Part shown: piece by piece, positions 31,134-43,406 of the stretch
Position numbering within the stretch: position 1 is the stretch's first letter
Layout: each line of letters starts with the position of its first letter
Assembly: GCF_009740395.1 (NCBI RefSeq)
Contig: NZ_WOXT01000006.1
Span: 1-64,000, forward strand
DNA from: Noviluteimonas gilva
Lineage (GTDB): Bacteria; Pseudomonadota; Gammaproteobacteria; Xanthomonadales; Xanthomonadaceae
DNA: 64,000 bases
Reading direction: 5' to 3'
The notes under the pieces: generated by a model
Told to the model about the DNA's origin: nothing
Seen by the model: the letters and a program-made list of their open reading frames with translations, nothing else
Database searches by the model: none
Translations under genes and position numbers: made by a program

Positions 31134-31182
31134 GTGACACGAAAATCGGGCGCGCGGCGCGATGCCGCGCGTCCTGCTTCGT

Positions 31183-31253
31183 CGAGGGGCGCTGCGACCG
31201 TGGATAGGCACGGCCAGGCTCGACGGGGTGCACCAAGCAACGGCGCCCGCTCG
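31183..31253 (+). promoter_or_regulatory. S-adenosylhomocysteine (SAH) riboswitch
   Basis: The metK-ahcY gap contains the SAH aptamer core: CGAGGGGCGCTGCGACCG, then a hairpin, CCAGGCTCGACGGGG, CACC, AAGCAACGGCGCC and CGCTCG. CGAG (31183-31186) and CTCG (31250-31253) close the outer stem. This matches the known SAH-sensing RNA family, which activates ahcY when SAH accumulates. The ahcY ATG begins 19 bases downstream with GGAG as ribosome-binding site. Confidence 0.9.
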
Positions 31254-31271
31254 ATTTACGGAGCAAACGCC

Positions 31272-40185: not shown

Positions 40186-42021
40186 TCAGAACCGCTTGCC
40201 CACGCTCACGAACACCGTCGCGTTGTCGCCGGCTTCCTGGCCGACGCTCGCCGTCGCACCGATGTCGGTGTCGACGCCGAACAGCTCCGTGCGCACGCCC
40301 AGCACCAGCGTGCCGTAGTTTTCGTCGTGCTCGGTGTTCGGCACGGCGTACGGCAGGGTGCCGGCGATGGTCAGCGATTGCGCGAACGCTTCTTCCGGCG
40401 CGTCTTCGAACTCGTGTTCCCACGTGAACTTCGCGTACGGCACGGCGGTCGGCGACACCTCGAAGCGCGCCTGCCAACCGGCGGCGCCGACGAGCGAATC
40501 GTAGTTCTGGTCGGGGAAGGCCAGGCCCGCGGCGTCGATGCGGTTTTCGGTGTAACCATCGACGTCGATGCGCTGCGCGAGCACCGAAACCACCGGGCCG
40601 TGCGTCAGCGAACCGGAGTGGAAATCCCAACCCGCCGATGCGCCGAACGTGAGGTTCTCGCCATCGGGCGAGCCTTCGTACACGCGCACGACCGGGCCGA
40701 GCTGCACGTTGCGCGTGACGTCGTAGCTGACGCTCGTCCAGCTCAACTGCGCGTTGACCCACACGTTGCCGGAGAACCAGCCGGCGAAGCCGCCGATGGT
40801 CAGGTCGTCCTGCGAGAAGTCGCCCTTGCGGCCGCCGTAGTCGAAGTCATTGCGGCCGAAACCGGCGAAGCCGCCGTACACGAAGTCGCCGCTGGCCCAG
40901 TCGACGCCGAACAACAGCGCCGGACCCGTGCCGTCGTAATCGCCCGGTGCGTCGTAACGCTGCGTGTCGCCACGCAGGTTCGCCCACCAGTGCGCGCCGT
41001 CTTCGGCCGGCTTGACCGGCATGTGCGAGGCGACCATCTCCGCGCGCGACTTGCCGATCAACTGCTCGGTGTACGGAAGCAGCGCGATCTGGCGCGGCGC
41101 TTCGAGCACCGAGATCGCGTACTGGCCGAGGATCGCGTGCGCGCCGCCGGTCGGATGCACGCCATCGGCGAACACGTAGGTCAACGCGGCATCGGGCGAG
41201 ACGAGCGTGCCCGGGTTGCACGTCAGCGACTGCGCGGTGATCTGCGGCTGGCACGCGGTGCCGGTGGTGTTGGTGAAACCGTAAGCCTGCGGCGAGGCGA
41301 TGATTTCGCGCAGCAGGTTGAACGTATCGAGCGGAATGACGCGCAGGCCCTGCGAGGACAGCGTCGAGAACAGCGCGTTGTTGTAGGTCACCGACAACTG
41401 CGTGGCGCCCGCCGATGCGGCCGGGCCCTGCGCGGCGAACGCGGGCGTGGCGCCCAGGTCCGGCACCGTCGGCACGAGGATGTACTTCGCACCGGCGCCG
41501 GTCAGCGCGGCCACATTGCCGACCTGCGAACCGACCGCCTGGAGCATCGTCGTCTGCGCGGGTGCGCCGCCGGCGATCGCGAACAGATCGTTCGCGCCGC
41601 CCCACACCGTGTACAGCGCATGCGAATCGGCGACGCCGCCGGTGGCCGTCAAATAGTTGGTGATCTGCGTGCTGAGCGACGGGATCGCGCCGAGCGGGCT
41701 CGCGCTGTCGGTGCCCGTGCGCGCGCCGCCGACGGCCCAGTTGGTGCCGCCCTGGTTGCCGCTGGCCGCGTTGGTGCCGTAGTAGTCGGCCAGCCACTCC
41801 GACCAGACCAGCGTCGGGTTGGTGGTGAACTTGCCCGTGATCGCGGCCGCGGGCCCACCGATCTGCACCAGCGCCGGGCGGTTCCACCCCGAGTCGGTGA
41901 GGCTGTCGCCGAAGAACACGGTCTGCGTGTAGGTCTGCGCGGCGGCGGGGAGCGCGGCCAGCGCGAGGGCGGCAGCAAGGAGACTGCGGACGGGCTTGAA
42001 CGCCCGGTGGGTCTGCTTCAT
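40186..42021 (-). CDS. GDSL esterase/lipase autotransporter (EstA-like)
   Basis: A 611-residue outer-membrane autotransporter. It has a signal peptide (LLAAALALAALPAAAQ) and a GDSL hydrolase passenger with the nucleophile in VFFGDSLTDSGW. Block III is VWGGANDLF and block V is FADGVHPTGGAH with the Asp-His pair. A C-terminal beta-barrel of about 260 residues ends in VFVSVGKRF, the terminal phenylalanine of such barrels. The EstA group hydrolyses esters at the cell surface and affects motility and biofilm in Pseudomonas. The start 42021 has GGAG seven bases upstream; the frame is open much further but crosses thiS in antisense. A c-di-GMP riboswitch lies about 300 bases upstream on the same strand. 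Confidence 0.93.
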   Translation of the reverse strand: MKQTHRAFKPVRSLLAAALALAALPAAAQTYTQTVFFGDSLTDSGWNRPALVQIGGPAAAITGKFTTNPTLVWSEWLADYYGTNAASGNQGGTNWAVGGARTGTDSASPLGAIPSLSTQITNYLTATGGVADSHALYTVWGGANDLFAIAGGAPAQTTMLQAVGSQVGNVAALTGAGAKYILVPTVPDLGATPAFAAQGPAASAGATQLSVTYNNALFSTLSSQGLRVIPLDTFNLLREIIASPQAYGFTNTTGTACQPQITAQSLTCNPGTLVSPDAALTYVFADGVHPTGGAHAILGQYAISVLEAPRQIALLPYTEQLIGKSRAEMVASHMPVKPAEDGAHWWANLRGDTQRYDAPGDYDGTGPALLFGVDWASGDFVYGGFAGFGRNDFDYGGRKGDFSQDDLTIGGFAGWFSGNVWVNAQLSWTSVSYDVTRNVQLGPVVRVYEGSPDGENLTFGASAGWDFHSGSLTHGPVVSVLAQRIDVDGYTENRIDAAGLAFPDQNYDSLVGAAGWQARFEVSPTAVPYAKFTWEHEFEDAPEEAFAQSLTIAGTLPYAVPNTEHDENYGTLVLGVRTELFGVDTDIGATASVGQEAGDNATVFVSVGKRF

Positions 42022-42090
42022 CGAACGCTCCAGGGCACACGGTTGGGTATGGTGCGTGAACTCTGCCACGCCCCGAGCGAGAATGCGCGC

Positions 42091-42291
42091 ATGGACATTC
42101 TGCTCAACGGACAGACGCGGACCCTCGCCTCGGGTGCCACGATCGCCGCATTGCTGGAGGCCGAAGGCCTCGCGGGCCGCCGCGTGGCGGTGGAAGTCAA
42201 CGGCGAGATCGTGCCGCGAGGTGTGCACGCGACGCATGCGCTCGTCGAAGGGGACCGGGTCGAAGTGGTCCACGCGCTCGGCGGCGGCTAG
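42091..42291 (+). CDS. thiS: Sulfur carrier protein ThiS
   Basis: A 66-residue ubiquitin-like sulfur carrier for the thiazole moiety of thiamine. It starts MDILLNGQTRTLASG, has VAVEVNGEIVPRG and ends in the required Gly-Gly (HALGGG). Its partner thiG lies 311 bases downstream rather than directly adjacent. The gap holds a minus-strand riboswitch and terminator whose T tract touches the thiS stop codon. thiS is also antisense to the esterase leader. Confidence 0.92.
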   Translation: MDILLNGQTRTLASGATIAALLEAEGLAGRRVAVEVNGEIVPRGVHATHALVEGDRVEVVHALGGG

Positions 42292-42320
42292 AAAAAAGAC
42301 GCGCGATGACACCATCGTGC
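42292..42320 (-). terminator. Terminator of the c-di-GMP riboswitch
   Basis: Read on the minus strand, GCACGATG (42320-42313) pairs with CATCGCGC (42308-42301) with one mismatch around GTGT, then GTC and six T (42297-42292). It directly follows the aptamer, as in transcription-terminating riboswitches. Confidence 0.7.
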
Positions 42321-42410
42321 GGTATCGGGAACCCGGCTGTCCGCGGCAGGGGGAGTGCCGGAGGACCCGTAGCTTTGCGACCCCGGCTTTCGCGCGGGTG
42401 TGCCGTGGCG
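42321..42410 (-). promoter_or_regulatory. Cyclic di-GMP-I (GEMM-I) riboswitch aptamer
   Basis: Read on the minus strand, the segment matches the GEMM-I consensus: GGCACACC, a stem capped by a GAAA tetraloop (GCGCGAAAGCC), GGGGTCGCAAAGCTACGGGT, a variable hairpin, and CAGCCGGGTTCCCGATA. The GCAAAGC receptor and the GCCGGGTT/CCGA closure are the diagnostic parts. It lies in the 311-base thiS-thiG gap but on the opposite strand, pointing toward the esterase gene. The remaining gap (42411-42602) has another perfect hairpin (CGCGCGATG / CATCGCGCG near 42414-42433) and no gene. Confidence 0.8.
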
Positions 42411-42602
42411 TACCGCGCGATGGGCATCGCGCGCAGCGGTGTGATTGCGTCGGCCGGGTCAGGGGTGAGCCCGTCTTCGTAATCGGTGCCGCTCCTCCAG
42501 CCTTACGCACCCCCCGGTGAACACAGGACACCCCGTGCGCAAATCCCCACGATTGACGATCTTCGGAACGCCCTGACCGACGAACGGCGTTACCATTCAC
42601 GG

Positions 42603-43406
42603 ATGCAAGACACCTCCGCCTTCGCGGCCGACGACGCCCTGGTCGTCGCGGGCCGCCGTTATCGTTCCCGTCTGCTCACCGGCACGGGCAAGTTCAAGGA
42701 TTTCGACGAGACCCGCCGCGCAACCGATGCAGCGGGCGCGCAAATCGTCACCGTCGCGATCCGTCGCATGAACCTGGGCCAGGATCCGAACGCGCCGAAC
42801 CTGCTCGATGCGTTGCCGCCCGAGCAATTCACGCTGCTGCCCAACACCGCGGGCTGCTACACCGCCGACGACGCGATTCGCACATGCCGCCTTGCGCGCG
42901 AACTGCTCGACGGCCACAAGCTCGTCAAGCTCGAAGTGCTCGGCGATGCGCGCACGCTGTATCCGGATGTCGTGCAGACCCTCGCCGCCGCCGAGCGCCT
43001 CGTTGCCGACGGCTTCGACGTGATGGTCTACACCTCCGACGATCCGATCCTCGCCAAGCGCCTGGAAGACATCGGCTGCGTCGCGGTGATGCCGCTCGCC
43101 GCGCCCATCGGTTCGGGCCTGGGCGTGCAGAACAAATACAACCTGCTCGAAATCGTCGAGAACGCGAAGGTGCCGATCATCGTCGACGCCGGCGTGGGCA
43201 CCGCGTCGGATGCGGCGATCGCGATGGAACTGGGCTGCGACGGCGTGCTGATGAACACCGCCATCGCCGGCGCGAAGGATCCGATCCTGATGGCGCATGC
43301 GATGAAGCTCGCTGTCGAAGCGGGCCGCGCCGCGTTCCGCGCCGGCCGCATTCCGCGCAAGCGTTACGCCTCGGCCTCGAGCCCCGTCGATGGCCTGATC
43401 GGTTGA
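42603..43406 (+). CDS. thiG: Thiazole synthase
   Basis: Forms the thiazole phosphate of thiamine from deoxyxylulose phosphate, dehydroglycine and ThiS thiocarboxylate. The 267-residue TIM-barrel protein has [49 protein letters not shown] (catalytic lysine), [10 protein letters not shown] and [20 protein letters not shown]. No TPP riboswitch was found before thiS or thiG. Confidence 0.96.

Follow-up and report, generated by a model that had tools for sequence, protein, structure and literature searches.

A known riboswitch class in an unusual place

Which gene does a riboswitch serve when the first gene it points at lies in antisense? This question is raised by the 64,000-nucleotide stretch of Noviluteimonas gilva DNA analyzed here (the window), where a c-di-GMP-I (GEMM-I) riboswitch, a known class in an unusual frame and an unusual place, sits between two plus-strand thiamine-pathway genes and is itself encoded on the minus strand. 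The Rfam covariance model RF01051 matched the minus strand at 42414–42324 over its full length (1–87 of 87), scoring 50.7 bits where the gathering threshold is 35; the E-value, calculated over the 64-kb window and the full set of 4227 families, is 5.7e-7. This is the only RF01051 match in the genome. A GEMM-I aptamer on this strand had been proposed by a sequence-only reading, which called for the Rfam check; the proposal is borne out, and the motifs it named, a GAAA-capped stem, GCAAAGC and CCGATA, are all found in the sequence along with GCCGGGTT. The limits of the element, real as it is, move slightly: rather than spanning 42292–42410, the aptamer occupies 42324–42414 and the hairpin plus U-run 42292–42321.

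The hairpin with six T that the same reading saw directly behind the aptamer is also there. It is terminator-like (42300–42321, minus strand), with a stem of 3 + 5 bp around one A-C mismatch and a fold of −10.1 kcal/mol, and is followed by TCTTTTTT, in which T and C at 42299–42298 precede a run of six U (42292–42297, minus strand) whose end at 42292 adjoins the thiS stop codon. A terminator scan of 41950–42650 reported one site, against 0.5 ± 0.6 in shuffles of that region, which taken by itself is weak evidence for a terminator; it reported no other terminator-like site between the U-run and the esterase gene. The 5′ arm of the hairpin is the 3′ strand of the helix that closes the aptamer, and folding predicts that terminator and closing fold exclude each other. 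The genome has 18 GGDEF and 11 EAL matches; c-di-GMP is therefore presumably made, and the ligand should be present.

On the plus strand, thiS (42091–42291; PF02597, TIGR01683) and downstream thiG (42603–43406; PF05690) are separated by a spacer of 311 bp that holds the riboswitch. The element thus lies 3′ of thiS in the geometry of an antisense riboswitch, and thiS is entirely antisense to the leader of any read-through transcript. The next gene in the riboswitch direction, about 270 nt on beyond antisense thiS, is a GDSL esterase autotransporter gene (est; 40186–42021, minus strand; PF00657 and PF03797), the probable target; Pfam matches and coordinates agree with the start at 42021 and the intervening antisense thiS that had been read from the sequence. 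Like EstA/EstP-type esterases, est has a GDSL domain plus an autotransporter barrel, but it scored 206 bits against the NCBIfam EstP model (NF041609), far under the cut-off of 1000, and we accordingly name it a GDSL autotransporter and no more.

The thiS-thiG site in relatives

RF01051 matches are present in at least 32 of the 247 family genomes (strict filters). We compared 35 riboswitch loci, the window and 34 from relatives, with tandem copies counted as one locus. In 24 of them the riboswitch stands beside thiS and/or thiG and antisense to them. In 8 of these 24, the last aptamer is followed directly, about 40 nt on, by a secreted protein gene, here called X and homologous in all its copies; the other 16, window included, lack X, and there est comes next on that strand. 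Elsewhere in their genomes, 11 of the 35 loci carry the riboswitch before X (three loci) or before a ~2500-aa DUF11/SdrD_B protein or spore-coat-U proteins; of these last two kinds, the Pfam scan covered a single ~2500-aa copy and two of the spore-coat type.

As observations in their own right, X encodes a secreted protein of about 840–1150 aa behind c-di-GMP-I aptamers in 11 loci (L040, L043, L046, L049–L051, L054–L056, L058 and L060); searches of five copies against Pfam and of two against NCBIfam gave no match. Tandem and triple aptamers precede X at the same thiS-thiG site in L046, L051 and L043. Aptamers also stand directly before ~2500-aa secreted proteins in L033, L035, L036 and L037, the last of which (the scanned copy) contains DUF11 and SdrD_B, and spore-coat-U proteins follow an aptamer in L032 and L041. 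In two tandem loci (G035 and G008), the first aptamer has window-type flanks and the second stands directly before X. These two first aptamers, together with the 16 loci lacking X, make up the 18 loci of the window-type aptamer used below.

Adjacency of est, a natural argument for est as the target, was examined and dropped. A further 60 thiG loci were compared, and 47 of them have the order est, thiS, thiG but no riboswitch (no R1 match); in 44 of the 47, thiS is no more than 1 kb away from thiG. The arrangement predates the riboswitch, est would stand beside thiS with or without it, and the adjacency therefore carries no weight. No degenerate riboswitch remnants were detected in the riboswitch-free loci, whether with R1 (58 of the 60, all those of 300 bases or more) or with Rfam at a lax threshold (10 of them). 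When R1 was run on 10 of 32 loci from a scan of named genomes, its only matches were two genomes already in the set, G127 and G102; one of the ten, L157, had too little DNA upstream of est for a riboswitch to be visible. Relatives that keep the riboswitch directly before the esterase where thiS is absent, which the sequence-only reading had suggested looking for, did not occur among the fetched loci.

Complementary flanks frame the aptamer

The window element shares with RF01051 a full-length match above threshold, the G before GCA, the GCAAAGC receptor and the GAAA cap, and differs from it in being framed by complementary and self-complementary flanks of 20–24 bp. The self-complementary 5′ flank (42411–42434, minus strand), which overlaps the first aptamer bases, pairs with the 3′ flank (42299–42324, minus strand) as an extended closing helix, and the first half of the 3′ flank doubles as the 5′ arm of the terminator. 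All 18 loci have 20–24 inter-flank pairs, the window 23. In every one of them the flanks pair more stably with each other than they do, on average, with flanks from the other genomes, and in 9 of the 18 the own partner is not surpassed by any foreign flank. In a plain MAFFT alignment, 82% of the cells of the extended helix are paired and 7 pairs are changed on both sides; the cells paired and the covariation score exceeded all 500 shuffles and the pairs changed on both sides 498 of 500, while further pair types exceeded only 375 of 500. The terminator hairpin had also been considered as the conserved structure, and was dropped: it showed no covariation across the family loci (68 of 500 shuffles scored as high), whereas the flank-to-flank helix does.

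For the window sequence, folding favors the structure with paired flanks by about 39 kcal/mol over the one that lacks this pairing, whether or not ligand is present. As the closed fold prevails even without ligand, any switch would have to act during transcription, that is, kinetically; alternatively, the predicted helix may lock read-through on, giving constant read-through. Because the flank helix uses up the 5′ arm of the terminator, the ligand should favor read-through, which suggests a c-di-GMP ON switch.

A candidate promoter for the riboswitch, TGTCC-N18-CGTA, is located at 42504–42530 on the minus strand. The pattern TGNCC-N18-CGTN, with A the commonest last base, precedes the aptamer in 18 of 18 loci (2.3 in shuffles), at 108–124 nt in 17 and at 83 nt in G101; it was derived from the same 18 sequences on which it was counted and is, as a riboswitch promoter, suggestive only. 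At X-type loci it is not enriched (2 of 9). A model that includes the flanks scored 95–141 bits in the 18 family loci. Across 369 genomes sampled from the class, among them few other family members, its best score outside the genome that contains the window was 56.7 bits, and the framed form looks specific to the bacterial family of the host.

The base before GCA, which we take to be the Vc2 G20 specificity position, is a G in the window (GGCA). By our own reading of the alignment, the 18 loci have 8 G, 6 A and 4 C at this position, and the window's genus has G, G, C, A and A. PMC6456294 describes an A-to-G change at nucleotide 20 that moves a GEMM-Ib switch from cGAMP to c-di-GMP. For the window, c-di-GMP is the natural guess at the ligand, and the variation between G, A and C among close relatives raises the possibility of other ligands or of a relaxed specificity.

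Decay of the est promoter and gain of a U-run in one clade

In the gap between thiS and est, 36 of the 47 riboswitch-free loci carry a strict match to an est promoter of roughly the form KTGAGC-N17-WWCSAT. We built a matrix from those 36 and scored every gap against shuffles, the riboswitch loci being outside the training set. Among the 16 riboswitch loci without X, 12 retain the promoter (p ≤ 0.037), 11 of them at the usual place, so that est need not depend on the riboswitch there; in the twelfth, G101, the best site is inside thiS. The remaining four loci, G000 (the window), G127, G102 and G075, are the only ones at background level (p 0.35–0.89). Their gaps measure 69–78 bp, compared with 160 bp in the sister genome G039 (p 0.037). 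The 69-bp gap of the window (42022–42090) has a matrix score of 2.0 (p 0.63) and, in an alignment with four congeners, is without the −35 half of the conserved promoter. A −10-like hexamer, read by eye, is left in the four gaps (CACCAT in three, TAGCAT in G075), and a weak est promoter may survive in them. Poor scores (p > 0.05) also occur in 7 of the 47 riboswitch-free loci, among them G087 (0.28) and G167 (0.39, likewise at background level); est is therefore able to persist where the score is poor and no riboswitch is present. As a separate observation on the same gap, a plus-strand GAGAAT within 42080–42091 is separated by only a few bases from the thiS start codon that follows it, and a GACAAT-like hexamer occupies the same place in most thiS-est gaps, as if thiS were leaderless.

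The same four genomes are the only ones among the 18 loci with a U-run of at least six (6–7) behind the hairpin; the other 14 have at most four (four in G078b, three or fewer in the rest). G039 combines a kept est promoter with TTTATC in place of the U-run. A quick est tree unites these four and places G039 as their sister (support 98 and 100). The est gene is open in all five, with dN/dS of 0.28–0.44 among the four. The decay of the promoter and the acquisition of the U-run thus map to a single branch: this is one clade, one event and one coincidence, not four. The earlier claim that est is the target accordingly changes its footing: the adjacency on which it leaned is no evidence, as the gene order predates the riboswitch, while the coincidence of promoter decay with the U-run beside an intact est speaks for it, in the window's clade only.

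A possible transfer of the riboswitch to est

The aptamer, the hairpin with its U-run, the compensatory pairing of the flanks, the decayed est promoter of the four U-run genomes and the intact est are directly seen, and the best-supported reading of them is that in the window's clade the riboswitch has been transferred to est, a reading in which we place about even confidence. In this model, leftward transcription of the riboswitch would start at a putative promoter some 110 nt before the aptamer, and the RNA would either end at the hairpin and its U-run, next to the thiS stop codon, or continue antisense through thiS into est. The long closing helix of the 5′ and 3′ flanks would take the 5′ arm of the terminator, and a ligand holding the first aptamer helix would favor read-through, making the element a c-di-GMP ON switch whose decision falls during RNA synthesis. 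With its own promoter largely lost, est in this clade would then depend on the read-through. A more elaborate history, which as a whole we consider rather doubtful, would have the switch built for X, X lost, the U-run gained, and est taken over beyond thiS as its promoter decayed, with one RNA raising est and lowering a thiamine-pathway gene with c-di-GMP, from a palindrome-framed strand-exchange platform that is maybe a distinct GEMM-I architecture of this bacterial family.

The main rival is that the riboswitch acts in antisense, the read-through RNA or the polymerase itself lowering thiS and perhaps thiG, with est incidental. Its geometry, an aptamer 3′ of thiS pointing back through it, is that of the SAM riboswitch at ubiG-mccB-mccA, and PMC9943018 reports that the antisense tendency is highest in the c-di-GMP riboswitch family. 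Moreover, the riboswitch is kept in 11 of the 12 loci without X outside the clade although est retains a promoter in the normal position there, and it must therefore do something besides supplying the sole est promoter in those genomes. However, outside the window's clade there is no six-U run, so the switched step would be unclear; we know of no c-di-GMP link to thiazole synthesis; and the decay of the est promoter within the clade is left unexplained. On balance we find antisense control possible yet rather unlikely.

The location of X about 40 nt behind the last aptamer in 8 of the 24 loci at this site, and the window-like flanks of the first aptamers in the tandems of G035 and G008, could also mean that the riboswitch once served X and, X being lost, is kept by inertia or locked in one state. 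X was found in none of the five genomes of the genus, in a search run without a positive control, and the variation of ligand-contact position 20 among the 18 loci points the same way. Decay would nevertheless erase a flank helix of 20–24 bp, which persists, compensatory changes included, across many genera (18 loci); the candidate promoter holds a fixed spacing, and the U-run is a gain within the clade. We judge such a leftover unlikely. That the hairpin is a plain terminator, shielding thiS from a constitutive antisense transcript with no switching at all, would account for a hairpin and U-run directly before thiS on the minus strand, but it does not account for the retention of a full-scoring aptamer and a long flank helix, and we hold it highly improbable.

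Relation to known systems

Several systems share parts of the proposed arrangement of transfer to est. The pilM riboswitch of Geobacter metallireducens is described in PMC9262584 as a transcriptional ON switch with a GEMM-I fold that responds to cGAMP, and that has an aptamer-closing strand common to the terminator, so that bound aptamer and terminator are mutually exclusive; the window differs in the G at position 20, which suggests c-di-GMP, in a far longer closing helix and in a target beyond an antisense gene. Antisense riboswitches (SAM at ubiG-mccB-mccA and B12 at pocR; PMC9943018) likewise lie 3′ of a gene and point antisense through it, whereas the window has a co-directional gene with a decayed promoter behind, and its antisense gene may be no more than an obstacle. 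Bc1 of Bacillus thuringiensis is also a c-di-GMP-I riboswitch with intrinsic terminators in a long leader; it has two, and PMC11218506 reports no c-di-GMP response in vivo or in vitro, a caution for the window. By titles and the starts of abstracts, none of the open-license papers found on an esterase or EstA together with c-di-GMP riboswitches, or on riboswitches in Lysobacter or Xanthomonadales, dealt with this locus.

If the transfer is real, it would capture a rarely visible process, a riboswitch gaining a new gene. Within a genus of five species, the sister would represent the old state, in which est has a promoter of its own and no strong U-run is present, and the other four the new state, so that the order of the steps and the need for each become testable. 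Displaced leaders of this kind would offer an explanation, one that needs no regulation, for some of the excess of antisense placements described among c-di-GMP riboswitches, and an EstA-like surface esterase would be tied to c-di-GMP.

The window contains a further riboswitch, of the SAH class, on the plus strand at 31178–31255 (61.9 bits, threshold 37). From their translations, we take the ORF just after it to be S-adenosylhomocysteinase-like and the one in front to be methionine adenosyltransferase-like, and a place before an S-adenosylhomocysteinase-like gene is usual for this riboswitch class.
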